From the IMG/VR virus record IMGVR_UViG_3300020202_000062, positions 1 to 64,000 of that record: a DNA stretch of 64,000 nt; one strand, written 5' to 3'. Positions 10,277 through 45,674 of this stretch are shown here, in pieces; the stretch's first letter is position 1; each line of letters begins with the position of its first letter. The notes below the pieces were generated by a model. The model was given only the letters and a program-made list of their open reading frames with translations. It did no database searches and was not told where the DNA came from. The position numbers and the translations under genes were made by a program. The stretch is from a virus.

Positions 10277-10446
10277 TCATCAATACGCTGATTACATTAG
10301 GTATATTTGCAGCGCTTGCTCTAGTGATCACCCTCATGATCATATGGCCTCCACTCATACTTGGGATAGCGGCTGCTCCTGCGTTTATGATGGTGTACTT
10401 ATTTGTAGATGAGGAAAGGAGAGGGCGTGCACGACGATCTAGGTGA
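10273..10446 (+). CDS. Small two-TM membrane protein
   Basis: The protein has 57 residues. Hydrophobic IINTLITLGIFAALALVITL and IIWPPLILGIAAAPAFMMVY are followed by an Arg-rich tail (EERRGRARRSR). ATG 10273 forms an ATGA overlap and has GGAAG upstream. It overlaps the Thg1-like gene by 20 bases. Confidence 0.7.
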   Translation: MIINTLITLGIFAALALVITLMIIWPPLILGIAAAPAFMMVYLFVDEERRGRARRSR

Positions 10447-19910: not shown

Positions 19911-20336
19911 ATGAGTGGTTACACCGATACTCGTCCAGAGGATAGCGGAGTGATAGAAACGTTCACCTTTTCAACCAAGTTGATTCCAGATACTAAGGCA
20001 AACATTGACCTTCAATTAGAAGCGTTAAATGCTCGCCTTGAGAACCTGGTAGACAAGTGTAAGGTAGACTATCAAGACGGTAGGTACCCAATTCTCGCGA
20101 AAATCTTGGATGTAAGTCGCGATCGCACCGAACTGGAGCGCCTATCAAAGGGGCTCCAGATCGTGGCGTCGTTCATCGAAGAGTTTGACGTACTTCGTGA
20201 GCGACAGAATGTATTAGCAATGGCCCAGAAGGATCCAGGTTGGTTCGCTGCTGCCTTTGGCGACTTTGATAAAGACATCAACCATTTTCTAGATGTCATA
20301 ACTCAAGATGATGAGACTTTAACTAGCGAGGAATAG
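19911..20336 (+). CDS. Hypothetical coiled-coil-like protein
   Basis: The protein has 141 residues: SVIETF-like N terminus, then DLQLEALNARLENLVDKCKV, RTELERLSKGLQIVASFIEE and FDKDINHFLDVITQDDETLT. It is mostly helical. Its TAG overlaps the GTG start of the E2-like gene, so it heads the ubiquitin-like gene set. The function is unknown. Confidence 0.8.
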   Translation: MSGYTDTRPEDSGVIETFTFSTKLIPDTKANIDLQLEALNARLENLVDKCKVDYQDGRYPILAKILDVSRDRTELERLSKGLQIVASFIEEFDVLRERQNVLAMAQKDPGWFAAAFGDFDKDINHFLDVITQDDETLTSEE

Positions 20337-21892
20337 TGAAAACTGAGATCGTACTAGGTGCTGATGGCGTCCGTAAGGATGTCGACATGGGCACGGTGTC
20401 ACAGAGTGACTTCCGCGACATGGCCAGCACCTATAAGGAACTTTCAAAGATTGCTCTCTTCGATACTGGTATCCTACCCTTGCTAGGATCAGGTGTCCTA
20501 GCAATCCGCCATTGCCTCAATCATACACAGATTGTAGTCCAGCATGCTCCTGGAAAATACTACATCAACTGGTGTGACAACGAAGGTGATGAAGATGTAC
20601 AGACATACTACTTGGCTCAGCCATGGCGTATCGTTATCGGTGATATCAAGGACGACGAACTCTTAGGTGCTCGTACCTTCTATTCGCCTCACCCAATCCA
20701 GACATTAGAGCAGCCGCTCTATCACGTCAACCTACCTAACATCAACTGTGAAGGCTACGGCTATGCCTCTGAGCCTTATGGTGGGAACGGTGTAGGTTGG
20801 ATTTGCCTCTACCACACTGGTAGTTGGCACAACCTAACGATGGGTGAGAGGATCCGTGCTCTCATCGAGCGTGCCTCAGGCGTAGAAGTCTACAACGATG
20901 GCAACATGAGCGAGACAGACGGTCCTCGCTTTTACTTTAAGAACGAAAAGCCAGAATACGTTTGCTCCCCCGATGCCTGGCAGAAGAAGTCAGATGAAGA
21001 AGGATTTGAGTGGACGCTGGATGAGGATCTTTGGATTCCTGTCCTGGTTACTGGACGAGACAAGCAAGATCGGCACGACCCTGAGGGTGTACCGCTGACT
21101 CTAGAGATGGCAATGTATGGTGGCTATCGTGCGTACTACGAGGAGAATCTAGTACCGAAGCCAGTCAATGCATTTGGCCGCGACGATCTAGAGAATCCAA
21201 CGGGCAAGGAACTATTCAAGCATATCTCAAGCGCAGTATCCAAGGCGAACATCGCAACAACTGGACCCGTCAAGCCACAGGTAGTCGCGGTAGAGGAAGT
21301 TCTAGCAGAGAACATCTGCAAGTGCTGCGAAGAAGACGAAATTGATGACTACGACTTTGTTGTCATCCATGATGGCACTAAGATCTGCTCCAGATGTGCG
21401 AACGAAGGTTGCTACGTACCTTGCGAAGAGTGCCATGACTACTTCCACTACAAGTCTGCTAAGCCCTTCAGTGAGGATGAAGAACTCTGGGCGTGTAATG
21501 ATCACGCACACCTATTAGACACATGCTCTGGCTGTGGTGCATACTGGTGGAAGAATCCAGGTGCTGGAATTGATGACTGGAGACACTGCATAGACTGTGC
21601 CGTTCCTGTCGACTGTTCAAGCTGCGGTAACGTCGTTGCTGATTGTGATATCATCGTTGTAGAGGCTAAGGCTTCTCCAGACGATGAGCACACAATGGAG
21701 TTCTCTCTCTGTCACTCCTGTGCAGGTAGCACTAAGACCTGTGCATGTAATGTCTTGGTCAACGCCAAAGACACCGGCCCACTAAACGGCCTGTCGGTAT
21801 GTCAGCCATGCGTCGTGAATGACGATGAAGGCATCCCTTCTTATGTCCCACAGTCTGCCGTGAATGTCACGTTGACTACTACTACTTCCTAA
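20336..21892 (+). CDS. E2-like (UBC-fold) protein fused to multiple zinc ribbons
   Basis: The protein has 518 residues and a GTG start with GAGGAAT upstream. Residues 85-200 contain PWRIVIGDIKDD, LYHVNLPNINCEG (125-139) and GVGWICLYH (152-160), matching the E2 core order P-x-I/L-xHPNI...G-xICL; C157 is the candidate thioester cysteine. Residues 325-495 hold at least eight CxxC-type pairs (CSRC, CEEC, CSGC, CIDC, CSSC, CHSC, CQPC) and may form RING-like or ribbon zinc modules. JAB, E1-like and Ubl genes follow. The E2 call is pattern-based and needs structure prediction. Confidence 0.6.
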   Translation: MKTEIVLGADGVRKDVDMGTVSQSDFRDMASTYKELSKIALFDTGILPLLGSGVLAIRHCLNHTQIVVQHAPGKYYINWCDNEGDEDVQTYYLAQPWRIVIGDIKDDELLGARTFYSPHPIQTLEQPLYHVNLPNINCEGYGYASEPYGGNGVGWICLYHTGSWHNLTMGERIRALIERASGVEVYNDGNMSETDGPRFYFKNEKPEYVCSPDAWQKKSDEEGFEWTLDEDLWIPVLVTGRDKQDRHDPEGVPLTLEMAMYGGYRAYYEENLVPKPVNAFGRDDLENPTGKELFKHISSAVSKANIATTGPVKPQVVAVEEVLAENICKCCEEDEIDDYDFVVIHDGTKICSRCANEGCYVPCEECHDYFHYKSAKPFSEDEELWACNDHAHLLDTCSGCGAYWWKNPGAGIDDWRHCIDCAVPVDCSSCGNVVADCDIIVVEAKASPDDEHTMEFSLCHSCAGSTKTCACNVLVNAKDTGPLNGLSVCQPCVVNDDEGIPSYVPQSAVNVTLTTTTS

Positions 21893-21903
21893 GGATCATT
21901 TAA

Positions 21904-23133
21904 GTGAGTGAACCATTCGTAGCAGTTCCCATGGAGGAACTCAATTACTTCTGGGTCATCGAAGATGAGGTACCTTGCTTCATCGGTGACGTAGAAGACA
22001 TCACCAAGCACGCCGACACCTACGGTTATGAGATCTACTACGTTCTCGCTAACCGTGAGGTGACTACGAAGGGGGCAAACAATGTCGTCCATACTTCGTA
22101 CGAGCCAAGCACCTGGAAGGTTATCAACACCTTTGTCGGTCGCGCCATAGTCCCAGCAGATGGTGAAATCGCTCTTACTACTCTTGAGACCAACGCATGG
22201 TACAGCCTGCCGAAGATCCCGTGGGAACTAGTTCAGCGCATCGACACATTCTTCCGTGCAGTTGACAAGAAGCACTCGACTGAGTCTATTGTCATCCTCA
22301 CCTTTGATTCGACTAAGGACGATTCATCTGGTTGGGGTGTCTTGGTACCAAACCAGGAGAACTCAGCCGTAGATTGTGATTACGATCCCACCAGTGTGGC
22401 CGAGGCTAAGTCTGAGGCTGGCGAGCACATCAACATCGTAGGCTCAGTACATAGCCATCCCGATATGTCAGCCTATGCATCACACACTGACCACAAGGAT
22501 CAGGCCACCTTCCCTGGTATTCACATCACGCACGGCTGGTCTAACAAGACCGGTGGCGTTACTGAATACCACATCGAGTTCATGATGGGTGGTTACACCT
22601 GGGAGTTCAAGCCAGAGCAGGTATTCGCCAACATGCCACAGCCCGAGATCGTCGTAGACGAAGAGATCGAGGAGTGGATGTCTAAGGTGAAGCCAGCGAC
22701 GAAGACCTTCCCAAAAGCTGGGAGTGGCACCTTTGGCTCGACTTCTAGCCCTGGCGGCCACTCTTCGGGCTCTGGTAACGCTGCGCTAACTCGCATCACG
22801 TTACCCTCCGATGCTCCTAGCCTTGATGATACGATCATCATTGGTGAGATTGCTAGGGACTCGCGTAACTGCTTGCTTTGTGATGGGCTACTAATCGGTC
22901 CAGAACTGGACAAGCGTCGTTGCTTGTCTTGCCACTCGTATCTGCTTCTCCCAGAAGAGACCATCGCCAACCTCCTTGAGGTTCAGGCTGAGTATAAACT
23001 CTTCGCATGGGAGATCGATCCTAGCCAGAAGCCAGATAAGGCTATTGTCATTTGGCGGAAGACCGAGGATGGCAAGAACGTATACGAGAATGTCTACACT
23101 CCTGAATCTGAGTCAACCCTGGGAAAATCCTAA
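21904..23133 (+). CDS. JAB/JAMM metalloprotease (deubiquitinase-like), zero-frame product
   Basis: The protein has 409 residues and a GTG start behind AAGGAT. The JAMM site is intact: E127 (TESIVILTF), then VGSVHSHPDMSAYASHTDHK with H183, H185, S189 and D196. This is the zinc peptidase fold that removes ubiquitin-like tags. A Ser/Pro linker and a ribbon (NCLLCDG, then CLSCHSYLLL) follow. The last codons CTG GGA AAA TCC TAA contain an in-frame GGGAAAA slippery heptamer (23121-23127) that would join it to a 216-residue zinc-rich extension. It is placed between E2-like and E1-like genes. Confidence 0.87.
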   Translation: MSEPFVAVPMEELNYFWVIEDEVPCFIGDVEDITKHADTYGYEIYYVLANREVTTKGANNVVHTSYEPSTWKVINTFVGRAIVPADGEIALTTLETNAWYSLPKIPWELVQRIDTFFRAVDKKHSTESIVILTFDSTKDDSSGWGVLVPNQENSAVDCDYDPTSVAEAKSEAGEHINIVGSVHSHPDMSAYASHTDHKDQATFPGIHITHGWSNKTGGVTEYHIEFMMGGYTWEFKPEQVFANMPQPEIVVDEEIEEWMSKVKPATKTFPKAGSGTFGSTSSPGGHSSGSGNAALTRITLPSDAPSLDDTIIIGEIARDSRNCLLCDGLLIGPELDKRRCLSCHSYLLLPEETIANLLEVQAEYKLFAWEIDPSQKPDKAIVIWRKTEDGKNVYENVYTPESESTLGKS

Positions 23134-23196
23134 GGTGGCTCTCTAGGACAGGTGGATCCTCCGAGGGTCGGGAATATCTTTCCGGTCCCGGAGGGT
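23121..23196 (+). promoter_or_regulatory. Putative -1 programmed frameshift site with downstream stem-loop
   Basis: The slippery sequence is G-GGA-AAA (23121-23127), in phase with the JAB frame and 3 bases before its TAA. A 16-bp stem with one bulged A follows: ATCCTCCG/CGGAGGGT (23156-23163, 23189-23196) and GGGTCGGG/TCCGGTCC (23165-23172, 23181-23188), with G-U pairs. The 28-base spacer is longer than usual. Confidence 0.65.
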
Positions 23197-23777
23197 CTAT
23201 CCTAGACGTAGGCTTCTGCGTAGAGTGCGGCGAACTGACCGAAGGTGATGGTCCAGAAGACAGTCTATGCCCTAGTTGCTGGAAAGAACTACGCCCAGCA
23301 CAAGAAGCATTTGATTGGGAGTTTCAGTGCGATGAATGTCAAGAGCCTGTGGAGTTTGCTTCACTTCTCTGTCGCTCATGCAAGTATGTATTCCCAACTG
23401 ACCACTGGACTGGTTGGACTAACCTTAGTGCAGAGGCAGTAAGACAAGCAGAGCCACCTCCCTTCGAAATAGATCCATCAGAGATCTACGACTATATGTT
23501 GTGCTGTAACGAGTCCCAGTGGGATTGTCAGTGCGAAGGCAGACAGAAGATCTCCTGGGATATGCGGAATGATGTTCCCAGAGAAGTCATGCAGAGTGCA
23601 TACAAACTAAACTCCAGTTGTATGGGGTGCGAGTTCTACTACACCCCAGCCTGCATGCCCTTCCGTGCCTGGATAAAGAACACATTGCTCACCGGCGAAG
23701 TCGGTGTACAAATCACTACTTGTAGCGCCTTCAAAGCAGATGAGACCTATGGTGCATATGCTTTTGAGTATGTATAA
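23127..23777 (+). CDS. Zinc-rich -1 frame extension of the JAB protein
   Basis: This is a 216-codon open frame entered by a -1 slip at 23127 (ATC CTA AGG). It has no ATG, GTG or TTG before codon 75 (GTG 23349), yet the part before that codon already encodes clear zinc ribbons: GFCVECGELTEGDG, LCPSCWKEL, FQCDECQEPVEF. It continues with LLCRSCKYVF, MLCCNESQWDCQCEGRQK and a later Cys set (SSCMGCEFYY). The full fusion would be about 624 residues. If frameshifting does not occur, only a 142-residue protein from GTG 23349 could be made. Confidence 0.7.
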   Translation: MLRWLSRTGGSSEGREYLSGPGGSILDVGFCVECGELTEGDGPEDSLCPSCWKELRPAQEAFDWEFQCDECQEPVEFASLLCRSCKYVFPTDHWTGWTNLSAEAVRQAEPPPFEIDPSEIYDYMLCCNESQWDCQCEGRQKISWDMRNDVPREVMQSAYKLNSSCMGCEFYYTPACMPFRAWIKNTLLTGEVGVQITTCSAFKADETYGAYAFEYV

Positions 23778-23814
23778 AAACTCAGGGAAGGCATTAAGAA
23801 AGGTACTCTAAACC

Positions 23815-24585
23815 ATGCGCGATCCCTATCGTACCATTGTGGTAGGTTGTGGGGGTATCGGCACCTGGCTGATCGAAGGTCTGTGTCGACAGATCTCAGC
23901 ATCAGCCCCTGGTTCTGGCATCATCCTAATTGACGGCGATTCATTCGAAGAGAAGAATCGTGAGCGTCAGTTGTTCAATGGTGCTGGCAACAAGGCAGTG
24001 GTGCTTGCCCGAAACCTCACACCACAATTCCAGAACCTCATGATCGTTGGTCAGCCCTGGTGGGTTGTCGGTGGTGAGGTATCTGGTGAGCCTGAAGAGG
24101 CATCAGATGACGGGACCGTGGTGACACGAGTACCTGCCAAGAAGATTCTTCAGAACGGCGATGTAGTCTATGCTGTTGTCGACAACAACGCAGCACGTAA
24201 GGTGTTGCTTGAAGCGGCAATGGAGATCGACAACATTGATGTGTTCTGTGCCGGTAATGATGACATGTACTACGGTTCAGTCTATCACTACCAGAGGCGA
24301 GATGGCCGTGACATCACGGTCAATCCGCTAGAAAATCACCCGGAGTATGCTGATCCTCAGGATCGGAACCCCGGTGAAATGAGTTGCCAGGAGCGCGCTG
24401 AACTAGATAGTGGTACTCAGCTCGTGGCAACCAACATGGCCGTTGCGGCTTGGCTGCTCGGTCGTAATCATAAGAGCATTCTTATGGGTGACGAACCGGA
24501 TGTGACTCAGATCTATTTCGATCTAGGTCATGGGCTAGCCCAATCGAATGATCGACGTATTGAATACGCCACAACGGCATCCTAA
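23815..24585 (+). CDS. ThiF/MoeB/E1-like ubiquitin-activating enzyme
   Basis: The protein has 256 residues. The nucleotide-binding VVGCGGIGTWLIEGLCRQ (9-26), ILIDGDSFEEKNRERQLF (37-54, with the E1 Asp and Arg finger) and VVDNNAARKVL match the adenylating Rossmann fold that activates Ubl C termini. C191 in GEMSCQERAEL is a candidate catalytic cysteine. It lies between the JAB and Ubl genes, as in prokaryotic Ubl gene neighbourhoods (PRTRC-type). It would adenylate the 24615 protein. Confidence 0.88.
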   Translation: MRDPYRTIVVGCGGIGTWLIEGLCRQISASAPGSGIILIDGDSFEEKNRERQLFNGAGNKAVVLARNLTPQFQNLMIVGQPWWVVGGEVSGEPEEASDDGTVVTRVPAKKILQNGDVVYAVVDNNAARKVLLEAAMEIDNIDVFCAGNDDMYYGSVYHYQRRDGRDITVNPLENHPEYADPQDRNPGEMSCQERAELDSGTQLVATNMAVAAWLLGRNHKSILMGDEPDVTQIYFDLGHGLAQSNDRRIEYATTAS

Positions 24586-24614
24586 CCTAGGTTAAACTAC
24601 AGGAGATATATCTA

Positions 24615-24875
24615 ATGGAAATGGCTTCAGGCCCTCAGAAGAAGGCCACAGCAGCAGCGGCACAGCCGACGAAGATTCAGTTCGGCTTCTTCACACTGAC
24701 TGGTAACCAGTACGCTGGCAAGACCATCGGTGAGATCCGCGCACAGCGTGGTCCAATGTGGCAGATGCCCGAAGACACCGTCGCTATGATCGGTGGTCAG
24801 AAGGTTGATGACACTCGCGTTCTAGCAGAAGGCGATCAGTTGGAGTTCCACCGCAAGGCCGGTGAGAAGGGCTAG
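24615..24875 (+). CDS. Ubiquitin-like beta-grasp protein (MoaD/PRTRC-C-like)
   Basis: The protein has 86 residues with AGGAG upstream. After an Ala-rich lead, IQFGFFTLTGNQYAGKTIGE, TVAMIGGQKVDDTRVLAEGD and QLEFHRKAGEKG match the MoaD/ThiS pattern (VNGxxVxxDxVLxxGDxxxF). The C terminus is AGEKG rather than Gly-Gly; the last Gly could still be activated. It directly follows the E1-like gene. It is the likely modifier of this system. Confidence 0.75.
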   Translation: MEMASGPQKKATAAAAQPTKIQFGFFTLTGNQYAGKTIGEIRAQRGPMWQMPEDTVAMIGGQKVDDTRVLAEGDQLEFHRKAGEKG

Positions 24876-24892
24876 TCTCTTCATTAGTAGGA

Positions 24893-24932
24893 CTGAGGGT
24901 AGGGTTGGGGCGAATGGCAGCCCTACCCTCAG
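24893..24932 (+). other. Perfect 12-bp hairpin after the Ubl gene
   Basis: CTGAGGGTAGGG (24893-24904) pairs perfectly with CCCTACCCTCAG (24921-24932) around a 16-base loop. The downstream sequence is A-rich rather than U-rich, so it may stabilise or attenuate the Ubl transcript rather than terminate it. Confidence 0.65.
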
Positions 24933-24956
24933 AAATACATATTCCTAAGGCTTACT

Positions 24957-26129
24957 ATGACTTCACAATCTCTTGCTATAAATCGTTTTTTTAAAGAGCA
25001 GCCAGATTGTATGGCGCACAGTCGGAACGCAGACGAACTGAAAGAACGATTCGAAGCGTTAGTTGCAGTGCCAAAGAATACTACAAAGACTGGCACCGCC
25101 AAAGATAGGCTAGCAGTCTTCGCTAGCAAGGGACTAGCCGAAGGTACTCATTGGTTCAATATGGGTAAGGTGTTCGAACACAACTTCGCTCGCACATACC
25201 CTAACCCGACCATCAAGTACTGGCTAGAGAAACAAGTTGGCATTCCATCAGACCAGTGCCAACTGGCCTTCATGGACAACGGTGACATCTTCCTGTTTAA
25301 GATTGAACCCAAGAACATTGAAGCAGTAAAGATCAAAGCACTGCCTACGCTCGACGGCAAGGCTGTAGACTTCTCGGTGCAAGAGCGTCCTAAGAAGCGC
25401 GCCGCTGTCGACCCAAGGTTTGGGGACATGCCTGATGTATCTGGTATGGCAATCTGTATGCCTAATTATCATGGCGGTGATACTCCGTCTGATATCACGC
25501 GTCTCCATAATGCAGGCTTTCCGCACCGCCGTATCGTTGCGGTTGAGAAAGATAAGACAGTATATGGTAGACTTTACGAACAAGTGCGGGGGCTGGGAGT
25601 AATCACAGTCAACCAAGATGTCGAAGAAGTTGTATGGGATCTCGCTAACGACGGCGACCGTGTCTCATGCTACTACGCAGACTACTGTGGTCAGTTCACC
25701 AAGAAGGTTCTCCATGGCTTCGAAGGCTTGATGGGTAATCTTACTGACAACGCACGCGTTATGGCAACCTTCAGTCGCTGTCATGACTCAGTCAAGTTCG
25801 ATGATATCTATGGTCCGCTAATGTTTGAGAAGTTAGCGAAGATGCGTAAGCGCCACTTCTTTCCATCAGAAGCATATGCTACACCAGCAGCGTGCTTGTG
25901 GATAACGCTTGTGATCAACCACGCACTCGGTTTAACAGCAGAGCAGTTTGCTAACCGTGTCACTATGCCTACTCCTAAGACTGGTTATTATGTAGAGGTC
26001 AAGTCTATTGACTACTATGCTGACTCGGTTCCCATGGAGTTTTCGACCTTCGATCTTCGTAAGGTTGACGATCCAGCAGATCATCTGCCAGATATGATCA
26101 GGGATTTGATGATTTCGTTCAGTGCATAG
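24957..26129 (+). CDS. Hypothetical protein, possible Rossmann-like enzyme
   Basis: The protein has 390 residues. Motif-like stretches are GFPHRRIVAVEKDKTVYGRL, GVITVNQDVEEVVWDLANDG and RVSCYYADYCGQF, which resemble the strand-acid-residue pattern of class I methyltransferases. The catalytic motif is not clear. It follows the Ubl gene in the same direction. The function is unresolved. Confidence 0.75.
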   Translation: MTSQSLAINRFFKEQPDCMAHSRNADELKERFEALVAVPKNTTKTGTAKDRLAVFASKGLAEGTHWFNMGKVFEHNFARTYPNPTIKYWLEKQVGIPSDQCQLAFMDNGDIFLFKIEPKNIEAVKIKALPTLDGKAVDFSVQERPKKRAAVDPRFGDMPDVSGMAICMPNYHGGDTPSDITRLHNAGFPHRRIVAVEKDKTVYGRLYEQVRGLGVITVNQDVEEVVWDLANDGDRVSCYYADYCGQFTKKVLHGFEGLMGNLTDNARVMATFSRCHDSVKFDDIYGPLMFEKLAKMRKRHFFPSEAYATPAACLWITLVINHALGLTAEQFANRVTMPTPKTGYYVEVKSIDYYADSVPMEFSTFDLRKVDDPADHLPDMIRDLMISFSA

Positions 26130-26168
26130 TGGTATACTAGACCTCACCACAAATATGAGAGGTTTAGT

Positions 26169-26687
26169 ATGGCAACAGTTCAGAAGATTCTGGAGGCGAA
26201 GCGCGCTCTAGATGAACTTCTTGGTCCTGAGTTGACTGAGATCATCGAGGCTATGAAAGAAGAGCCCGGTCCAAAGAACAAGTACTTTGTTGAGATCCCT
26301 TCCGGTGAGAAGGTTGACTACTCCATCGAAGAGATGATGGCTCTAGTTGCCGTCACGTCTAACCGATATCAGCGAGCGGCTCGTGCAGCAGGTCTGGCAA
26401 GATCACTCTTCAAGATCTCTGAAGCACGGTATAAGTTGAAGTTTAAGACTTCACTCACAGGTAAGAACACAGCAGAGCGTGAAGCCAACGCAATGGAAGC
26501 TGCCACTCAGGAGTTTCTGGCACTAGCAGTTGTAGAATCCTGTGTTGAATTAGCTGAATCACTGGAGTCAGCAGCAAAGATGGCTAATGAATCTGCCAAG
26601 AAGATCTTGGATAAGATCCAGACGATGTATGTTGCTCAGCGTCGTGAAGAAAAAGGTGCCTACCGAGAAAGTGATTTTGGTAGATAA
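26169..26687 (+). CDS. Hypothetical helical protein
   Basis: The protein has 172 residues: VQKILEAKRALDELLGPELT, RAARAAGLARSLFKISEARY, KLKFKTSLTGKNTAEREANA and LAESLESAAKMANESAKKIL. It is almost all helix. A recombination-mediator (UvsY-like) role is conceivable from composition only. AGAGG precedes the ATG. Confidence 0.78.
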   Translation: MATVQKILEAKRALDELLGPELTEIIEAMKEEPGPKNKYFVEIPSGEKVDYSIEEMMALVAVTSNRYQRAARAAGLARSLFKISEARYKLKFKTSLTGKNTAEREANAMEAATQEFLALAVVESCVELAESLESAAKMANESAKKILDKIQTMYVAQRREEKGAYRESDFGR

Positions 26688-26693
26688 CTATGC

Positions 26694-26722
26694 TACAATA
26701 GTATATGTATGAATACATGTAT
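26694..26722 (+). promoter_or_regulatory. Putative operator/promoter region
   Basis: A TACAAT -10-like hexamer (26694-26699) precedes the perfect 10-bp palindrome ATACATGTAT (26713-26722), which is preceded by the offset ATGTAT. No convincing -35 at 17 bases was found. It is a possible binding site for a regulator of the genes from 26734. Confidence 0.35.
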
Positions 26723-26733
26723 AAAGGTGGCTA

Positions 26734-26991
26734 ATGGTGGTTAATCCTACTTACTACGGTGAATATCGGTCAAGCACGGTGTCTCAGACAGGCTGCATCA
26801 AGCAGTTCGTGACGACACCTGGTTCAAATCTACTCTTCCCGCCACAGGTCAGTTACGAATGTGATCTGTGTAAGAAGTCACATGGTTTCAGGCTGGTCCG
26901 AACATGGTCAGTCTCCACCGAGCGCCAAATCAAGCAATTTGAGAAGTATTGTCAAGATCACAAGATGGATCAAGACGTACCGCTTAACTAA
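26734..26991 (+). CDS. Small zinc-ribbon-like protein
   Basis: The protein has 85 residues: MVVNPTYYGEYRSSTVSQTG, then VSYECDLCKKSHGFRLVRTW and RQIKQFEKYCQDHKMD. One CxxC pair plus a later Cys/His could bind zinc. AAAGGTGG lies 3 bases upstream. A terminator follows. The function is unknown. Confidence 0.76.
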   Translation: MVVNPTYYGEYRSSTVSQTGCIKQFVTTPGSNLLFPPQVSYECDLCKKSHGFRLVRTWSVSTERQIKQFEKYCQDHKMDQDVPLN

Positions 26992-27013
26992 GTCTTTATC
27001 TATAACTACAGCG

Positions 27014-27043
27014 AAGGGACCAGCATCGTCTGGTCCTTTTGTA
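27014..27043 (+). terminator. Rho-independent terminator
   Basis: GGACCAG (27017-27023) and CTGGTCC (27030-27036) with loop CATCGT, extended by flanking A-T/G-U pairs and followed by TTTTGTATTT. It lies 25 bases after the 26734 gene. Confidence 0.88.
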
Positions 27044-27059
27044 TTTGAGAGGAAGTTTT

Positions 27060-28643
27060 GTGAGTCTAGCAGAACATCTGCATGTTGGTACTCCCCTGGT
27101 CTGGGTTGAAACAGATGAGCCTGACCGTATTACTGACATGATCGTGGCTCATTCACAGCGCCCCGTATTCCGTATCGATCCTTTCGAGGGTGTACTGGTC
27201 TACAAGAGGGGTCAATGGCGCAAGGTTCTGTTCAGTAACAACGGCGCTATGGATCTCTCCTGGAGATTCGAGGATGCAATCGCACACGTCTACAAAGAGC
27301 GTGGTGTATTCATCATCACCAATGCTCACAAGGTAGCAGAAGAAATCCCAGACCTGCTTCTGGGCGGTACGGCACAGTATCGTAGAGCATTCTACGATAA
27401 CAACAAAGATGACCTACCCTTGCAGTTGATCCTCCTCTCATGTGGTATGGATATCCCACCGGAGATTGCACGACACGCAGCAGTAGTGCCATCTTCTCTG
27501 CCTAACACAGCAGAACTAGCATACATCGTCACGCACATCTCTAATGAGGCTAACGAACCAGTTCTACCTGAGGCTGCTGACCTTACGCCTATCACTAGGG
27601 CTGGTCTAGGTCTCACCGAGTCTGAGTTCGTCCAGGCTTGTGTCCTATCTCTACGTGAGAGGGGCATCATCGATGCTGAGCACATCAACAATTTCAAGCG
27701 TGCCAAGGTTTCCTATGGTGGCATGCTTGAGATCCGTCGCCCTGAGATCAACTTCGATATGATCGGTGGCCTAGATCTGGCGAAGGAAACAATCAAGGCA
27801 GCAGTATGGGCGTGGCACAACCCGGAGCAGGCAGCAGAGTTTGGTGTATCACCTCTGCGCCGTATGCTTATGGTTGGTGTACCGGGCACTGGTAAGTCAG
27901 CGATCTGTGAGGCTACGGCCAATGAACTAGATCTAGAACTTGCAGTGCTCGGCGTAAGCAAGATGATGAGCAAGTGGATCGGTGAGTCTGAGTCCAACAT
28001 GCGTCGGGCTTTCGCTCAACTAGGAGCACTGAAGCCTGTTGTAGCATGGGATGATGAGTTCGGTCGATCAATGTCTGGCGGCGGTACGTCGAACGACGGA
28101 GGAACCACCGACCGTGTACACGGCGAGTTCCTTACTGGTCTACAAGAACTACCTGACGAAGTGTTCTACATGGCCGCCGCCAACCAAATCACAGGTCTAG
28201 CACCTGAGATCCTTCGAGCAGATCGTTTCGATAAGATCATGTTCGTGGGCTTCCCTACCGAAGAAGAACGTCAGAGCATCTTCGGTATCCACCTAGGTGA
28301 CCGTGCCTCTGAGCACAACCTAGAAGAACTTGCGGGGGCTACACGCTCCTTCACTGGCGCAGAGATCAAGGCACTTCTAAAGGAAGTTCGTAACAAGATC
28401 TCTGGTCCACAACGCCGACACATCACAGACGAAGACATTCTTCAGTTCGTTCCGAAGCAGAAGAACCGTATGTGGATCCGGCACAAACAAGACATCATAG
28501 CCATGTATCGACGTGCATTAGATGAATGGGATTGGGCATCCTCTGGCCAGTTGGCTGAGGCTCAAGACGTTATCAATGATCGTTTCGATGCTGGAGTACA
28601 TACCAAGAAACTAGCAAACGTTCAAGTTAAGAGATGGGCATAG
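27060..28643 (+). CDS. AAA+ unfoldase/segregase-like ATPase (CDC48/FtsH type)
   Basis: The protein has 527 residues and starts at GTG 27060 behind GAGAGGAAG. The N-terminal half (1-225) is a separate alpha/beta region. The AAA module has FDMIGGLDLAKETIKAAVW, Walker A MVGVPGTGKSA (271-281), pore-like SKMMSKWIGESE, Walker B VVAWDDEFGRS, and arginine finger LRADRFDKIM. This layout is typical of proteins that unfold tagged substrates. It sits in the Ubl region, so it could extract modified proteins. That link is by context only. Confidence 0.88.
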   Translation: MSLAEHLHVGTPLVWVETDEPDRITDMIVAHSQRPVFRIDPFEGVLVYKRGQWRKVLFSNNGAMDLSWRFEDAIAHVYKERGVFIITNAHKVAEEIPDLLLGGTAQYRRAFYDNNKDDLPLQLILLSCGMDIPPEIARHAAVVPSSLPNTAELAYIVTHISNEANEPVLPEAADLTPITRAGLGLTESEFVQACVLSLRERGIIDAEHINNFKRAKVSYGGMLEIRRPEINFDMIGGLDLAKETIKAAVWAWHNPEQAAEFGVSPLRRMLMVGVPGTGKSAICEATANELDLELAVLGVSKMMSKWIGESESNMRRAFAQLGALKPVVAWDDEFGRSMSGGGTSNDGGTTDRVHGEFLTGLQELPDEVFYMAAANQITGLAPEILRADRFDKIMFVGFPTEEERQSIFGIHLGDRASEHNLEELAGATRSFTGAEIKALLKEVRNKISGPQRRHITDEDILQFVPKQKNRMWIRHKQDIIAMYRRALDEWDWASSGQLAEAQDVINDRFDAGVHTKKLANVQVKRWA

Positions 28644-29264
28644 ATGGCAGACGTAGACGAATTAGGATTTAGTTTAGACGGCTTGGACGATCCCCCTGCT
28701 GCGCCACCGCAACAGCAGCAGGCTTTTGAAAAGGATCTGTACAAGAAGTGGTTCAGGACCAAGGACCGTGCAGGTTTCGTAAGCCTTCGACCATTCTTCA
28801 AGGCCGGTAAGGTTGTTATAGATATTGGTAAGGCTGATCCTAATTCGTCTGCTTTGCTCTCTTCTTCAGAGGCATACGTAGACGTAGTTCAGTTAGGCAC
28901 ATACCTGCGTGCGATTGTTGAAGGTCGCGCCGCGAAACTGTATCCCAAGAGCGATTACCTCAAGGTAGATACTGACGAAGGTCTAACGATCTTCGGTGGT
29001 AAGGGTACATTGAGTCGAGTCTTTAAGGCTCATCACTGGCCAGGCAAAGATAAGGGCACCTATGACTCTTCTGCGTTCCAGTGGAAGGTTGGTCATTTCG
29101 AAGGTAAAGAATCCTCAAACGGTTTGATCATGCCTGATTGGCAGAAGCCGAAGTCTGTTGATAGTATTAAGGTTACACGCACAGATATCGCAGAGATCTC
29201 ATACACTCTCGACATAGCGTTGCAAGCCTATGCTGTACAGAACAAGGATTGGTTACAAACATAA
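28644..29264 (+). CDS. Hypothetical protein
   Basis: The protein has 206 residues: MADVDELGFSLDGLDDPPAA with a Gln run, then GFVSLRPFFKAGKVVIDIGK, EAYVDVVQLGTYLRAIVEGR and DIAEISYTLDIALQAYAVQN. The beta-rich core with charged edges could be an OB-type nucleic-acid binder, but no motif confirms this. It starts right after the ATPase stop. Confidence 0.78.
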   Translation: MADVDELGFSLDGLDDPPAAPPQQQQAFEKDLYKKWFRTKDRAGFVSLRPFFKAGKVVIDIGKADPNSSALLSSSEAYVDVVQLGTYLRAIVEGRAAKLYPKSDYLKVDTDEGLTIFGGKGTLSRVFKAHHWPGKDKGTYDSSAFQWKVGHFEGKESSNGLIMPDWQKPKSVDSIKVTRTDIAEISYTLDIALQAYAVQNKDWLQT

Positions 29265-29650
29265 TGAGTCACGGAGAAGACATCCCCGCAAACTTCAGAG
29301 ACATCGAGGTTCTACGAAACCAGGTCACTGAAGCACTGAACAACTTCGCTAAGAACACAGCGAGTCGCTTCACTGAAATCGAAGAAAGATTAGAAGAAGC
29401 AGACAAGGTTGTTTCTGCTTTAGCCATGGGCTATGCGGAGATGGCTGTAATCCTCGACGCTGTAATTGCTCATGTTGGAACTAAGTCTCCCGATGAGCGT
29501 AAGGCTTTCTTGGAGTCGATAGAGTCAGGACGCAAGCAGATGCTGGGCGTCTTTTCGGAGTATGCAAATGTCGTGGAACGAACAGATCCAAGAACTGCCT
29601 CAACCATTCAAGACATGGTTAAGGAACAGCAAACTCCTACCTCCGATTAA
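29264..29650 (+). CDS. Hypothetical helical protein
   Basis: The protein has 128 residues from ATG 29264 in TAATG: MSHGEDIPANFRDIEVLRNQ, SRFTEIEERLEEADKVVSAL and IESGRKQMLGVFSEYANVVE. It is mostly coiled-coil-like helices. The function is unknown. Confidence 0.78.
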   Translation: MSHGEDIPANFRDIEVLRNQVTEALNNFAKNTASRFTEIEERLEEADKVVSALAMGYAEMAVILDAVIAHVGTKSPDERKAFLESIESGRKQMLGVFSEYANVVERTDPRTASTIQDMVKEQQTPTSD

Positions 29651-29876
29651 CTCAGTAGCACTCCTGGTGGTGGATGAGAATCTTAAGTTCTTGTCCACCT
29701 CCTTGGAGTTTTGTTCTGTTGCCTTCGGAGTAGCCAAGAAGATGTTCCCAGAGGCTAAGTCTATGCTGACTGTCTCTGGTCCTGAGTATCAATTGATCAT
29801 GTCGGGCGAAATAGAATTGCACGACATCAAACTACGACAAGAAAAAGATGAAGTCAACAGTTCAAATAGCCAATGA
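29568..29876 (+). CDS. Hypothetical protein
   Basis: The protein has 102 residues. ATG 29568 is preferred to ATG 29562 because GGAG (29557-29560) then has 7-base spacing. MSWNEQIQELPQPFKTWLRN, INSVALLVVDENLKFLSTSL and FPEAKSMLTVSGPEYQLIMS. It overlaps the previous gene by 83 bases. No family was recognised. Confidence 0.7.
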   Translation: MSWNEQIQELPQPFKTWLRNSKLLPPINSVALLVVDENLKFLSTSLEFCSVAFGVAKKMFPEAKSMLTVSGPEYQLIMSGEIELHDIKLRQEKDEVNSSNSQ

Positions 29877-30357
29877 AATCCTAACGCATCTAGTGGTGCG
29901 ATCCAGTAGTTCTTGGGCTGCTGCCCTACACGATCTGATGCTGTCTGAGGAAGCCACAAAATACACCGCTGCCCTCGCCCGTAAGTACAATACAGAGAAC
30001 GCCCGTACTTACACCAAAGGTTTCGCAGACCTGCATGCACAACTGCCCAATATCAGCAAGGAAGACTTCAAGGAGGCAACTTCTTTACTGAAGGAACGTG
30101 GCAAGATCGTTCAGTATGGCAAGGGTAAAGGTGTAGCCATCATCATTCTGGACAGCACTACAATCCCAGAAGAAGAGGGATGGATTAGGCCTGATGATTT
30201 CAGTGCGCTACTCAAAGCAGCAGCATCGTACGTGCCAGAGATGGAGCGGATGCAAATTGAGGTTACCAGGCTACGGTCAGACCTAGAAGAAGCAAACGAA
30301 ACTATCGCTGCTCTACAAGAGCAAGTAAAACTAAACTATCTTACAACTTGGAGTTAG
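29848..30357 (+). CDS. Hypothetical protein with C-terminal coiled coil
   Basis: The protein has 169 residues. STVQIANEILTHLVVRSSSS, a winged-helix-like stretch SLLKERGKIVQYGKGKGVAI, and a C-terminal heptad region (MERMQIEVTRLRSDLEEANE). It may bind nucleic acid through the winged-helix-like part. This is tentative. Confidence 0.76.
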   Translation: MKSTVQIANEILTHLVVRSSSSWAAALHDLMLSEEATKYTAALARKYNTENARTYTKGFADLHAQLPNISKEDFKEATSLLKERGKIVQYGKGKGVAIIILDSTTIPEEEGWIRPDDFSALLKAAASYVPEMERMQIEVTRLRSDLEEANETIAALQEQVKLNYLTTWS

Positions 30358-30363
30358 ACTCTA

Positions 30364-31260
30364 ATGCCTAGCATGGACGAACTCATCGAACTATATAACT
30401 CGGTGTCAGATGAGGAAGAAGTAGCAGCACCCAGCGAAGTTGACTGGGCCGCGATTCCTACAATCCTAATGGATGGGGCTGTAGATTATGCGGTCGATGA
30501 AGTAAAAGTAGAAGAAGAGCCTCTTCCAGAGTACTTCATCAATCCCATCTTCGATACCGATCACCCAGATTGTGGGTATGCACTAGTTGATGAAGAAAAC
30601 CCTATGCTTATCCATGTCCATCTAGCCGAAGGCTATGAGAGTACGGGCGTAAATGTGGCTCGTCTGCATGAGAAAGTGCAGGATGGGCAGAAGAAGTTTT
30701 CATCGTCCGCAGTCCTACGTACAAAGTTCGACCCGGCTAAGCAGGTGTCCTGTAAGTGGTTGGTGCCCAGTGTCGAGGCAGTGCAGATAGATAAGGCCGT
30801 CCTACCAGAGGACTACCCATACGATCGAGAGCCAGACTACCCGATCTGTATGAATCCTGCCATCAAGAAAAAGGTCAGCGTCAACATCCCCCCGTGCATG
30901 CACGCTGATCAGCCGCAGAACCAGTGTGATGGATACGAATCATCTAAGTGGACTAAGGTTCGAGAGACCCAAGTCGCCACTCCATCAGGTCTTTACACCT
31001 TGACAATAGAAACTCGTCTAAGCGGTGAAGCGGTACCTACAGCAAGAGTACTCCATACGAACAATGGTGCCACGATTCCAGTTCAGATCGTAGTCCTAAG
31101 GGCATCTGACTTTGATGAAGACTTCATCACGGTAGTGAATCAGTTCTTCGATGGATACATTCTAGAAAGCGAACCTATCGAAACTCATGAGGTCGAGATA
31201 GAAACTACAACTGTTGCTAAAGAAAAGGTAAAGTACCTTGAATACGTTCTCTCCTTCTGA
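30364..31260 (+). CDS. Hypothetical acidic protein
   Basis: The protein has 298 residues: MPSMDELIELYNSVSDEEEV, FINPIFDTDHPDCGYALVDE, then LYTLTIETRLSGEAVPTARV and DFDEDFITVVNQFFDGYILE. It is beta-rich with acidic termini. It directly precedes and overlaps the first of three E2-like genes, so it may partner them. The function is unknown. Confidence 0.78.
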   Translation: MPSMDELIELYNSVSDEEEVAAPSEVDWAAIPTILMDGAVDYAVDEVKVEEEPLPEYFINPIFDTDHPDCGYALVDEENPMLIHVHLAEGYESTGVNVARLHEKVQDGQKKFSSSAVLRTKFDPAKQVSCKWLVPSVEAVQIDKAVLPEDYPYDREPDYPICMNPAIKKKVSVNIPPCMHADQPQNQCDGYESSKWTKVRETQVATPSGLYTLTIETRLSGEAVPTARVLHTNNGATIPVQIVVLRASDFDEDFITVVNQFFDGYILESEPIETHEVEIETTTVAKEKVKYLEYVLSF

Positions 31261-32152
31261 CACGTCATTCAAACTCTCCATCAATCCAACGACTACAACT
31301 CTAGAGCACCCGATGGTAATGGGCGCTAGAGTTTCGGTTCCTACACAGTCGTTGGCAGAGGCTTTCTTTACGGCAACCGACCAGGATACTGATCTTCTTC
31401 CTCCTGTTACTCGTTACGTGTCGCCGGACTACCGTAGTTTCATCATCGAGCGCTCGCCCACGATGCAGAGGATCAAGGCCAAGAACGGTGTGCTCGATTC
31501 TGAGAGAGAGTACAAGGAATTCGAGATCCCAATTCCGTGGATGTACTACGCCATCGCCTTCTCTGATGATCAGCATCAGGAACTAGCGGAGTTCAGAATC
31601 TATTGCCGGACTGAGCAGATCTATCACCCCGATGAAGTTCTAGCATACCTCCCTCTCCCCAACTGTTACTCATGGGGTGAGGTGTGTCTTGGCGAGAACT
31701 ACATCGAGGAGGCTCTTCACGATGCTCGCGATGGCAATCTATCTTCAAAGATCAACGCATTGATCACGGCTTTCTGGGGGTCAGGTTTCAACCTTGACAC
31801 CATTGAGTTCGCTGAGGCAGGCAAAACTCCTGACGCTCTTGCTGAAGCAATGAAGAATCGCGACAATCCAGAACTAGAGTACCGAGACTATAACGACAGC
31901 AGCAAAATCTTAGACTACTTTGAGAATTGGTCTAAGATGTCGATGGAAGAGTTATTGTCGCTGGAATTCTACCAAGCTAAGGTATCAGTCATCTCTCCGG
32001 ATAATGGTAACTACACCACTGAAGTAGAGCATAACAGTATCAGTAGTATCATTAGGAGATGGGCCAGCTCAAGACAGATAGGCTGGACTTCTGGCGAGAC
32101 TCCGTTTCTAGACTACATGCGAAATCTGGTCGTAAGGATTCCGACACAATGA
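31238..32152 (+). CDS. E2-like protein, tandem paralogue 1
   Basis: The protein has 304 residues with a TTG start overlapping the previous gene; the in-frame ATG 31313 is an alternative. LLPPVTRYVSPDYRSFIIER, PIPWMYYAIAFSDDQ, and YLPLPNCYSWGEVCLG (137-152, candidate Cys150) follow the layout of prokaryotic E2 proteins of the PRTRC-B type. TAFWGSGFNLDTIEFAE follows. The next two genes share the same order of motifs, indicating tandem duplication. Confidence 0.62.
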   Translation: MNTFSPSDTSFKLSINPTTTTLEHPMVMGARVSVPTQSLAEAFFTATDQDTDLLPPVTRYVSPDYRSFIIERSPTMQRIKAKNGVLDSEREYKEFEIPIPWMYYAIAFSDDQHQELAEFRIYCRTEQIYHPDEVLAYLPLPNCYSWGEVCLGENYIEEALHDARDGNLSSKINALITAFWGSGFNLDTIEFAEAGKTPDALAEAMKNRDNPELEYRDYNDSSKILDYFENWSKMSMEELLSLEFYQAKVSVISPDNGNYTTEVEHNSISSIIRRWASSRQIGWTSGETPFLDYMRNLVVRIPTQ

Positions 32153-33009
32153 ACATAACGGTCCAAGACAAAGATGGAGTGTCTACCATCACCTATGGTT
32201 GGGCTGATGGTGCTACCGAAACTATCTCGGTAAATTCAAGAGCATTGATGGTAGAGTGCAGCCGTAATCTATGGCCAACAGAGGGGTTCTTACCTGCTGC
32301 GGTTCGTTGGATGAGCAAGAATCGGGACATAGTCCTGTTCGAGCGCCCGCCAATGCACGTAACAGTGGACATGGCATACGAGCGGCAAGAGTTAGCCGAG
32401 ATGGAAGGTACTCAGCGCGAAGTATTTCATCTTCCCATTCCTTGGACCTTGTATCTCGTACAGTTCAACTATGTATATGATCCAATTCAGATCAACGTGT
32501 TTACAAGACCAGGGCCTATTACGTCACTAGATGAAGAGATCTATCTTCTACCTCTACCGAACTTCTATATGAATGGTAAGTTGTGCAATCCAACTACACC
32601 TAAGGCTGAAGTTTTCTCTCCCGATATTCACACAGGTATCCAGAGAGCATTCAATATGGTATGGAACTCTGGTTACAACCAAGACCTGTACGATTTGATG
32701 AACATGGCACGAGATCTGCATCTCCCAGCCCATGGAGGGTACGGTGACTCATCCTACCTTCGTGCTTGGGAGTCCCTGAGTCTGTCTGAAGTTCTTGAGG
32801 CAGAATTTCCTTATGTGTTCACGTTTGATGATTTCGAAGAAGAAGAATACGACGAAAACGACGATCCTGTTACGGGCTACGGCAACAACGATGCTAAGTC
32901 ATTGCGTGATATGATCGAATACATTCAGAACTATAGCAAGTCGGTCAACAACCCATACAAATTCTCTACTACGCTAGTGAACATCGCTAGCCAACTATCC
33001 AATACCTAG
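32149..33009 (+). CDS. E2-like protein, tandem paralogue 2
   Basis: The protein has 286 residues from ATG 32149 (ATGA overlap; AAGGA upstream). FLPAAVRWMSKNRDIVLFER, LPIPWTLYLVQFNYVYDPIQ, and LLPLPNFYMNGKLC (133-146, candidate Cys146), then FNMVWNSGYNQDLYD, align with the neighbours. The acidic C-terminal part (DFEEEEYDENDDP) is distinct. It probably diverged after duplication. Confidence 0.64.
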   Translation: MNITVQDKDGVSTITYGWADGATETISVNSRALMVECSRNLWPTEGFLPAAVRWMSKNRDIVLFERPPMHVTVDMAYERQELAEMEGTQREVFHLPIPWTLYLVQFNYVYDPIQINVFTRPGPITSLDEEIYLLPLPNFYMNGKLCNPTTPKAEVFSPDIHTGIQRAFNMVWNSGYNQDLYDLMNMARDLHLPAHGGYGDSSYLRAWESLSLSEVLEAEFPYVFTFDDFEEEEYDENDDPVTGYGNNDAKSLRDMIEYIQNYSKSVNNPYKFSTTLVNIASQLSNT

Positions 33010-33017
33010 GAGTACAA

Positions 33018-33908
33018 GTGCAGCGTCAAGTAACGGTCTCTCGACCGGCAGGCTCTCGTGGTCTAAAGGTTGAGAACAGACTCCTCAACGGGACCTACCC
33101 TTCAGACGCTGATATGAGAGACGTAGTTGATGTTCCTGAAGTCCAGTTTCTGGAGTCACTTCAGGTAACACATGACGCGAATCTCCTACCCCCTGGTGTA
33201 TTGTGGATGTCGGCTGATGGTAAGTCCTTACTTATCCATGAGCCCCCAGCACGCAAGAGAATCAGCATGAGATGGGGAGCACTGGGTGAGTTCACGATTC
33301 CACTATCGAACTACGACCTACCCATGCCAGACCTAGTCTATGGTATCTCGCCAGCATCAAATGGCCTGCCTCATGTGAGTCATATATGGGCTGCTGAGTC
33401 TCGACCAGAAAGTTGGGAGTCCAGACTATATTGGATACCACTCCCTAATATGTGGCATACTGGTGCTATCTGTACGCATACTTTGCTTGCGGCAGAATCA
33501 GATGCGCCGTATCACTGGATGGTTAACTTAGCAATCAATGAGTTTTGGTCCTCTATCTTCAACCTCGACGTAGAGGTCTACCGAGAGAACCCACTCTATT
33601 GCTACATGCGTGACATCGTCAATGAGCCAATAGACTATCATGGTTGCGACTGCGATTACGAAGACTGTGAGGATCAGGGTGAACCCATCTACGGTGAATG
33701 GTTCGACAATCCCTACAGATTCTGGGAGTCATTGGAACTCAATGAGGTCTGGCGAAGGTTCGATGGCTACTGGCAGAGAAGTCATCGCCTGTATCAGGCA
33801 AAAGAGTTGATCAAGAACAACAGCGGCGAGTATGCTTTCGGTGGATCCGAGGCAGAGCGCCTGATGGCTGTGATGATTGCCAAAAGTTACGAAAATACTA
33901 TGGTCTAG
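33018..33908 (+). CDS. E2-like protein, tandem paralogue 3
   Basis: The protein has 296 residues and a GTG start with GGAG upstream. NLLPPGVLWMSADGKSLLIH, MPDLVYGISPASNG, and YWIPLPNMWHTGAICTH (138-154, candidate Cys152), then INEFWSSIFNLDVEVY, repeat the pattern of the two preceding genes. A Cys-containing acidic insert (CDCDYEDCEDQGE) is unique to this copy. It is the last gene before a strong promoter. Confidence 0.64.
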   Translation: MQRQVTVSRPAGSRGLKVENRLLNGTYPSDADMRDVVDVPEVQFLESLQVTHDANLLPPGVLWMSADGKSLLIHEPPARKRISMRWGALGEFTIPLSNYDLPMPDLVYGISPASNGLPHVSHIWAAESRPESWESRLYWIPLPNMWHTGAICTHTLLAAESDAPYHWMVNLAINEFWSSIFNLDVEVYRENPLYCYMRDIVNEPIDYHGCDCDYEDCEDQGEPIYGEWFDNPYRFWESLELNEVWRRFDGYWQRSHRLYQAKELIKNNSGEYAFGGSEAERLMAVMIAKSYENTMV

Positions 33909-33973: not shown

Positions 33974-34276
33974 ATGGCGCAACAATCAAGCAGCAAAGAG
34001 CCTCTCTTCACTAGAGGGGATGTCGCCAAGATTCTAAATGTCACGCCTCTTACGATAGCGAACCGAGAGAAGACGAAGAAGTATCCTGAACCTAGGAGAG
34101 ATCTGAATAACTATCGGGTCTATTCGTTGAACGACGTTCTGAATCTACAACTGTTAACATACAATGCTCTAGATCCCAAGACGGTAATCGCTGTCATGTT
34201 CGACAAAGGTTACAAGGATCTTAAGGAATCTATGAAGATTATCGACGGAGCATTAGATAAAAGAGTGGGGGCATAG
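33974..34276 (+). CDS. MerR-like HTH protein
   Basis: The protein has 100 residues. LFTRGDVAKILNVTPLTIAN, REKTKKYPEPRRDLNNYRVY and SLNDVLNLQLLT give the winged-helix MerR pattern, including the pre-wing YRVYS segment. No effector domain follows. It has its own consensus promoter and may autoregulate. It resembles phage excisionase or MerR adapters. Confidence 0.8.
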   Translation: MAQQSSSKEPLFTRGDVAKILNVTPLTIANREKTKKYPEPRRDLNNYRVYSLNDVLNLQLLTYNALDPKTVIAVMFDKGYKDLKESMKIIDGALDKRVGA

Positions 34277-34480: not shown

Positions 34481-34897
34481 ATGTTAGATCCAAAAAACAA
34501 CTGGACCGGTGTTGGTGGCGTCGTAGCAGACCCAGAGGTAATCAACGGCTCGATTCTCAAGATTCGAGTAGCAGTCGATTACGCTGGATCAGAGCGTGAC
34601 TCCAAGAACACCTCCGGTTACTTTGACGTTGTGTACTACCTGAACAACGAAGACAATGCACGCAATGCCAAGTGGGTTAAGTCCCAGGTTGAGGCAGGCA
34701 ACATCAAGAAGGGTTCACAGTTAGCCATTCTTGGTCGTCTAGTTCAGGAACGTTGGGAGAAGGACGGTAGCAAGGGTCAGCGTGTGGTAATCACCGCAGA
34801 AGCCCTAACCTATGCATCAAGTTCTAAGCCTGCTGGTGAGTCATCAACAGCATCAGCCGGAACTTCTAGTGTAGCAAGCCTGCCTGACGACTTCTAA
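34481..34897 (+). CDS. ssb: Single-stranded DNA-binding protein
   Basis: The protein has 138 residues. The OB-fold strands NWTGVGGVVADPEV, LKIRVAVDYAG, SGYFDVVYYL and GSQLAILGRLVQERWEK are followed by a Ser/Ala-rich linker and the acidic tail SLPDDF, which recruits partner proteins. It would coat replication intermediates. It is adjacent to uracil-DNA glycosylase. Confidence 0.9.
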   Translation: MLDPKNNWTGVGGVVADPEVINGSILKIRVAVDYAGSERDSKNTSGYFDVVYYLNNEDNARNAKWVKSQVEAGNIKKGSQLAILGRLVQERWEKDGSKGQRVVITAEALTYASSSKPAGESSTASAGTSSVASLPDDF

Positions 34898-45597: not shown

Positions 45598-45669
45598 GCT
45601 TCGGTAGTTCAATGGTAGAACAGCGCCCTCTAAAAGCGTATGTTGAGGGTTCGAATCCCTTCCGAGGCG
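45598..45669 (+). tRNA. Amber-suppressor-type tRNA (anticodon CTA), Gln-like body
   Basis: Acceptor GCTTCGG/CCGAGGC, D-arm GTTCAATGGTAGAAC and variable ATGTT identical to tRNA-Gln(CTG) at 5283, T-arm GAGGG-TTCGAAT-CCCTT. The anticodon loop is CTCTAAA, giving CTA that reads UAG. The stem GCGCC/AGCGT has one C-A mismatch next to the loop. No CCA is encoded. Confidence 0.85.
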
Positions 45670-45674
45670 CTCAA

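Follow-up and report, generated by a model that had tools for sequence, protein, structure and literature searches.

The DNA analysed here, in the following called the window, comprises bases 1-64000 of the 158,928-base IMG/VR virus record IMGVR_UViG_3300020202_000062 and carries at positions 20336-33908 a block of genes resembling a ubiquitin-like protein conjugation system. As an earlier note on this DNA had stated, an E2-like protein with a zinc-binding part (E2zn), a JAMM/JAB protease, a ThiF/E1-like enzyme, a small ubiquitin-like protein (Ubl), a CDC48-like AAA ATPase and three tandem E2-like proteins follow one another in this order, all on the plus strand (Table 1). Homology is supported for each part of the block, most weakly for E2zn, and a chance arrangement can be dismissed because 44 other loci have the identical gene order. 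As far as can be judged from sequences and predicted structures, the block probably encodes a reversible pathway of Ubl protein conjugation that is part of the core genome in a single lineage of large myophages.

The Ubl obtained no match in Pfam or any other library. Its AlphaFold2 (AF2) model, with a predicted local distance difference test score (pLDDT) of 84, displays a beta-grasp and a flexible tail and thus has the fold whose absence the earlier note had named as grounds for giving up its reading. In a Foldseek comparison with the PDB the best match was Caldiarchaeum ubiquitin (6fnn, 6fj7), and the remaining top 50 matches were ubiquitin, SUMO and folds or designs of a similar kind. The tail is nearly invariant, reading EFHRRAGEKG in most relatives and EFHRKAGEKG in the window. 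In most relatives the protein ends at the tail glycine and in a few it extends by two further residues, as one would expect if JAB were able to trim precursors. The E1-like protein scored 34.1 bits against the Pfam family ThiF (PF00899, cut-off 28.1), and its profile matches in the PDB are MoeB, UBA5 and SAE2. Residues G11, G13, G14, D40, D42, R51, K60, D123 and C191 are kept in all 20 aligned homologues, Cys191 being the candidate catalytic cysteine.

The predicted isopeptidase reached 26.7 bits against Pfam PF14464 (cut-off 25), and the intact JAMM site claimed for it is indeed complete, with the pattern HSH-x7-S-x2-D within the segment HSHPDMSAYASHTD. Among the listed JAB relatives only that of locus L009 lacks an intact motif. 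In most relatives the JAB domain and a Cys-rich part constitute one fused protein, and a hidden Markov model (HMM) match relates the separate Cys-rich product of the window (23349-23777) to the C-terminal part of these 551-582-residue fusions. In the window, the frame of the Cys-rich product extends upstream without interruption beyond the JAB stop (23121-23777, with CVEC...CPSCW in the open part); the split may possibly reflect a non-standard start or a frameshift.

The assignment of the E2-like proteins builds on the Pfam family PF14460 (Prok-E2_D) and on links between profiles. Tandem E2-like 3 scored 35.7 bits and tandem E2-like 1 remained with 20.4 bits (E 4.6e-4) under the cut-off of 25; tandem E2-like 2 and E2zn had no Pfam match, and 11 of 23 members matched the family. 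The three tandem proteins match one another in blastp at about 1e-12 (copy 1 against the others 1.5e-12 and 4.3e-12, copy 2 about 5e-12). A profile built solely from the tandem E2s of the clade recognised the N-terminus of E2zn with 3.8e-5, and hhalign aligned E2zn with the tandem E2s at 95% probability (E 2.4e-8) over a stretch ending at the LPN motif. In E2zn this motif reads LPNINC..GVGWICLYH, its LPN and Cys being nearly invariant among 13 homologues. In the tandem E2s of the clade, Pro, Asn and Cys of a P...N-x7-C site are invariant (Asn and Cys in 63 of 63), as is a later N-x-D pair, and the Asn stands exactly 8 residues before the Cys in most copies. The HPN...C site of eukaryotic E2s has the same Asn-to-Cys spacing. 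The catalytic residues of E1, E2 and Ubl are all intact.

As a separate observation, E2zn of most relatives and a few tandem E2s terminate in a [D/E]-x-P-F-like tip that resembles the C-terminus of bacterial single-stranded DNA-binding protein, SSB (examples are L018:5222-7144, L024:5706-7094 and L021:5372-7186). Such a tip would fit docking at replication sites; E2zn of the window phage and of L016, L020 and L034 lacks it.

Table 1. Genes of the Ubl block and its downstream flank (window coordinates).
Feature	Position	Strand	Evidence
E2zn, E2-like, zinc-binding CxxC repeats at the C-terminus; putative E2 that includes an adaptor/E3-like part	20336..21892	+	
Predicted JAMM/JAB isopeptidase, Zn-ribbon C-terminus	21904..23133	+	PF14464
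Cys-rich protein, split-off JAB C-terminal domain; true start uncertain	23349..23777	+	HMM match to relatives' fused JAB
E1-like (ThiF-fold) putative Ubl-activating enzyme; GCGGIG, DGD, NRERQ, K60, D123, Cys191	23815..24585	+	PF00899
Ubiquitin-like protein (Ubl), 86 residues, C-terminus EFHRKAGEKG	24615..24875	+	AF2 model, Foldseek
390-residue protein, insertion between Ubl and AAA	24957..26129	+	No Pfam match
Conserved protein common to nearest subgroup alone (L016, L020, L034)	26169..26687	+	blastp 45-49%
Cdc48-like AAA ATPase with one AAA module and an N-domain of its own	27060..28643	+	PF00004, TIGR01243
p206, conserved protein directly 3' of AAA	28644..29264	+	44 clade loci, 39-46% identity
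p104, small conserved protein	29562..29876	+	27-43% identity, 12 representative loci
p298, common to nearest subgroup	30364..31260	+	Comparison with relatives' loci
Tandem E2-like 1, LPNCYSWGEVC	31238..32152	+	PF14460 below cut-off; blastp
Tandem E2-like 2, LPNFYMNGKLC	32149..33009	+	blastp to copies 1 and 3; catalytic column
Tandem E2-like 3, LPNMWHTGAIC	33018..33908	+	PF14460 above cut-off
MerR-like helix-turn-helix protein, ends block in nearly all relatives	33974..34276	+	PF00376 4e-4; 56-73% identity
SSB-like protein, conserved flank	34481..34897	+	PF00436 24.8 bits vs cut-off 26; 48-54% identity

Two of the listed starts are preferred because of the alignment to relatives: the AAA gene probably begins with the GTG at 27060 in an open reading frame that opens with TTG at 27039, and tandem E2-like 2 probably at 32149, with a 4-bp overlap with the preceding stop, in a frame running from 32059. 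The 390-residue product of 24957-26129 found no relative in the compared loci and no match in the family libraries searched; as a part of the system it was rejected, since the window phage alone carries it. In a PHROGs search of the block proteins only the AAA match was informative, and a promoter scan gave no surplus over shuffled sequence.

Scans of viral contigs based on E1, E2 and AAA yielded two sets of loci. The first comprised 45 loci in the last scan, and the order E2zn-JAB-E1-Ubl-AAA-p206-p104-E2-E2-MerR-SSB-UDG is the same in the 44 loci other than that of the window, wherever the contig reaches, with collinear flanks. The contigs run to more than 200 kb, and the same portal family was found on 17 of the 20 cluster-bearing contigs tested. 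In an E1 tree of 99 sequences this set forms one clade with a support of 100/100, in which the window phage branches first; it differs from the other members by the third tandem E2 and the extra gene at 24957-26129. Two different whole clusters, L018 and L021, are located on one contig (IMGVR_UViG_3300042868_009074, 267,766 bases), which reflects either an assembly join or a true duplication. As judged from these sequences, the Ubl block is core equipment of a lineage of large myophages. Megablast and tblastn searches against 50,697 named phages gave no match to E1 or the last E2; hence no isolate is known from this collection. The relatives retrieved via the portal protein were fragments of at most 59 kb only, so that their lack of E1 is uninformative. 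The joint presence of a full E1-E2-Ubl-JAB set, a Cdc48-like AAA and a total of four E2-like proteins within a single phage block is supported. The earlier note had called this composition unusual for a phage; it does not single out the window phage, the arrangement being clade-wide. The second set consists of about 40 further loci of large and jumbo phages (including L118-L149) on contigs of up to 527 kb, which contain E2-JAB-E1-Ubl without this AAA and often a second E1-like gene. A scan of cellular genomes revealed the module on 27 contigs of metagenome-assembled genomes (MAGs) from candidate phyla, Methylomirabilota, Chloroflexota and others. Several Methylomirabilota-type contigs have an AAA gene immediately ahead of the E2 or JAB gene, and in L053 and L054 there are gene overlaps of 4 bp. 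The loci in which an AAA gene was noted together with E2-JAB-E1-Ubl include L053, L054, L055, L058 and L060 (Methylomirabilota-type and unclassified MAGs), some of them with a second AAA gene on the opposite strand.

The AAA ATPase matches Pfam PF00004 with 74.3 bits (cut-off 21.2, E 1.6e-20) and in NCBIfam comes nearest to CDC48 (TIGR01243, 1.5e-36) and to proteasome-activating nucleotidases; its conserved motifs are GVPGTGKS, the Walker B DE and RADRF. The nearest named relatives belong to Corndogvirus (e.g. Catdawg gp97) and to phages of Agrobacterium, Rhizobium, Rhodobacter, Pseudomonas and Aeromonas, with about 30% identity over 50-65% of the length. A protein of about 200 residues follows the AAA in most of the named-phage loci; a p206 HMM detected no p206-like protein next to the AAA there.

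Several findings weigh against a complete ubiquitin-like pathway. The AF2 model of E2zn is poor (pLDDT 61) and Foldseek returned no PDB match for it, leaving a ubiquitin-conjugating fold unsupported by structure; the tandem-E2 profile retrieved no E2 from the PDB, and no E3 family was identified. No proteasome is encoded in the record, for which reason coupling to a proteasome was rejected, and the AAA C-terminus shows no HbYX-like motif. Most of the other phages with a Ubl module lack this AAA family, and the six named-phage AAA loci, of which about 19 kb were examined, are devoid of Ubl, E1, E2 and JAB genes; several of them lie near genes of DnaB and DNA polymerase. The missing Ubl genes imply that in other phages the AAA either predates its association with Ubl genes or is independent of it. 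Judged from the examined stretches of these nearest named relatives, the AAA is not reserved for Ubl systems across phages. AAA and p206 might be a separate machine for DNA replication or assembly that is adjacent to the Ubl block without being fed by it, a scenario compatible with protein tagging by the remaining genes and also in line with the lack of E1 matches among the named phages searched. We rate this scenario as only just short of evenly balanced; it has to contend with the retention of the AAA 3' of Ubl by the clade members and with MAG operons outside the clade that likewise join AAA to E2-JAB-E1-Ubl, in two cases with the mentioned overlaps. The assignment as a Ubl-dedicated unfoldase is based on the strict synteny in the clade and on these analogous MAG operons. 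A coupling of the AAA to Ubl tagging is conceivable on these grounds, at somewhat less than an even chance.

Protein tagging is favoured by the protein families, the Ubl fold, the catalytic residues, the conservation and the synteny. It is further favoured by the 16 loci retrieved by AAA alone, which contain the Ubl block as far as their contigs extend, and by the AAA-E2-JAB-E1-Ubl operons of Methylomirabilota-type MAGs. The reaction would start from a Ubl made with a free C-terminal glycine, which E1 would adenylate and then hold as a thioester at Cys191. Subsequently, the Ubl might be transferred to the catalytic cysteine of the E2-like proteins, the Asn eight residues upstream serving as the oxyanion residue, and from there to targets selected by the zinc-binding C-terminus of E2zn and by the tandem E2s. 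The JAMM protease would strip the tag and trim those few Ubls of relatives that carry two residues past the glycine, and the Cdc48-like AAA and p206 would probably act on the tagged complexes. Each enzymatic step is deduced from the sequences. As the main chemical alternative, E1 and Ubl might operate as a sulfur carrier system that makes a Ubl-thiocarboxylate for the thiolation of tRNA or metabolites, with JAB as trimming protease and the E2-like proteins otherwise employed. The combination of a ThiF/E1 with a small Ubl resembles ThiF/ThiS and MoeB/MoaD, and the window is rich in tRNA (26 tRNA genes and a tmRNA were found). This alternative would leave four E2-like proteins with invariant Asn and Cys unexplained, and the record yielded neither a rhodanese nor a TtuA/TilS-type ATPase, for which host enzymes could substitute; we regard it as improbable.

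The biological context is provided by the surrounding genome. Genes for the portal, major head, tail sheath and baseplate wedge proteins elsewhere in the record identify a contractile-tailed phage (myophage), which also encodes DnaB, DNA polymerase and ribonucleotide reductase. The structural genes are located on the minus strand, and the Ubl block lies on the plus strand between RNase H/WhiB genes and MerR/SSB/UDG genes. Because of this position and the strand opposite to the structural genes, we tentatively propose that conjugation serves to remodel replication or transcription proteins in the DNA-metabolism phase. With the same reserve a viral ubiquitin-Cdc48 pathway can be envisaged, in which Ubl, E1 and several specialised E2s would mark replication or transcription complexes, the Cdc48-like AAA would dismantle them and JAB would reset the mark. 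A different function might be counter-defence or superinfection exclusion, achieved by tagging host immune proteins or structural proteins of rival phages, or by JAB stripping host immune conjugates. BilABCD is known to act on phages. Anti-phage immunity uses relatives of these enzyme classes, as exemplified by Cap2/Cap3 (PMC10097602) and the Bil operon (summarised in PMC11354881), and E1 matches the E1-E2 models of PADLOC. These matches are weak and confined to the ATP site, and PADLOC found none for E2, JAB and Ubl; moreover, by inspection the E2 copies lack the Cys-Glu-His-His spacing of the Bil type, and a clade-wide block beside replication genes looks like core equipment rather than exchangeable arms-race cargo. 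We therefore consider a defence-related function unlikely.

The host is suggested to be actinobacterial by WhiB, a DUF5925-AAA protein, the 26 tRNA genes and the tmRNA. The AAA ATPase with a DUF5925 N-domain is encoded at window 15767-16960. The tRNA-rich region also holds a Thg1-type tRNA-His guanylyltransferase (10409-11191), and ARAGORN reports a tRNA with a CTA anticodon (tRNA-Pyl type) at 45598-45670, a possible amber suppressor. NMN adenylyltransferase/NadR-like, QRPTase-like phosphoribosyltransferase and Sir2 proteins (2739-3764, 3746-5011 and 7115-7846) may constitute an NAD salvage and NAD-consuming set, and a gene of the IMP dehydrogenase/GMP reductase family (E 1.4e-113) is present on the minus strand at 57255-58268.

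Bacterial Ubl systems have mainly been described from mobile elements or plasmids and from anti-phage defence, not as core equipment of viruses. If the proposed conjugation pathway is real, bacterial viruses would also employ protein tagging in their own replication cycle; it would serve as a compact model for how ubiquitin tagging and unfolding work together and widen the possible source pool of ubiquitin signalling. The viral ubiquitin-Cdc48 pathway, if true, would be the first case of a bacterial virus that has a complete tag-and-unfold pathway among its core functions. The open-access literature, to which the search was restricted with paywalled work and preprints outside it, yielded no account of a phage that encodes an E1-E2-Ubl-JAB set; the survey of huge phages (PMC7162821) does not mention ubiquitin, and in the available passages of PMC1779556 phages appear solely for tail-assembly Ubl/JAB proteins.

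Among known systems, the AAA proteins of Corndogvirus and of Rhizobium and Rhodobacter phages, which are related to phrog_8638, are homologous to the AAA described here (about 30% identity over 60-65%) but are unaccompanied by Ubl, E1, E2 and JAB genes in the examined stretches. The Caldiarchaeum system shares the Ubl fold, and its Rpn11-like protein is a weak match to the JAB profile; in contrast to it, the phage record contains no proteasome, E1 and E2 belong to other families and no RING E3 was found. With BilABCD and Cap2/Cap3 (CBASS) the block shares the logic of E1, E2 and JAB, and Bil also has its own Ubl. It differs by a short single-domain ThiF-type E1 that is not fused to E2, a single-domain Ubl, several E2s and its status as phage core genes; identity with Bil or CBASS was rejected on the PADLOC result. 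PRTRC cassettes (TIGR03735-TIGR03738 and related) possess the same enzyme classes, and weak similarity to PRTRC_A, PRTRC_B and PRTRC_ThiF was detected. Membership in PRTRC was rejected: PRTRC_ThiF, A and B reached 29.3, 17.7 and 21.2 bits compared to cut-offs of 144.75, 101.8 and 131.45, no block protein matched PRTRC_C, to which the earlier note had likened the Ubl, and ParB (PF02195) was not found in the 158.9-kb record, which may be incomplete but in which controls were detected. The closest counterpart is provided by the type 6d operons, as portrayed in the available passages of PMC1779556. In both, a small Ubl with a conserved glycine at its C-terminus, an E1-like protein, a JAB and an E2-like protein are encoded by genes of their own; the E2-like protein (family D) lacks the classical His, matches PF14460 and has a conserved Cys. 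Type 6d operons are described there as strictly conserving a His downstream of the E2 Cys and an Arg and a Trp in the JAB N-domain. In the phage set no downstream column exceeds about 14% His in 63 E2 copies, Asn and Asp being invariant instead, and an alignment of 14 JAB proteins shows no invariant Arg or Trp in their N-domain. Further differences are the phage origin, the three to four E2-like genes, the E2 zinc fusion, the AAA and p206. The same passages attribute to type 6d a partner protein that is alpha-helical and has charged residues conserved, a part that p172 or p206 might play here. Altogether, the phage system appears to work like the type 6d operons predicted in these passages of PMC1779556, yet departs from them in the two features tested.

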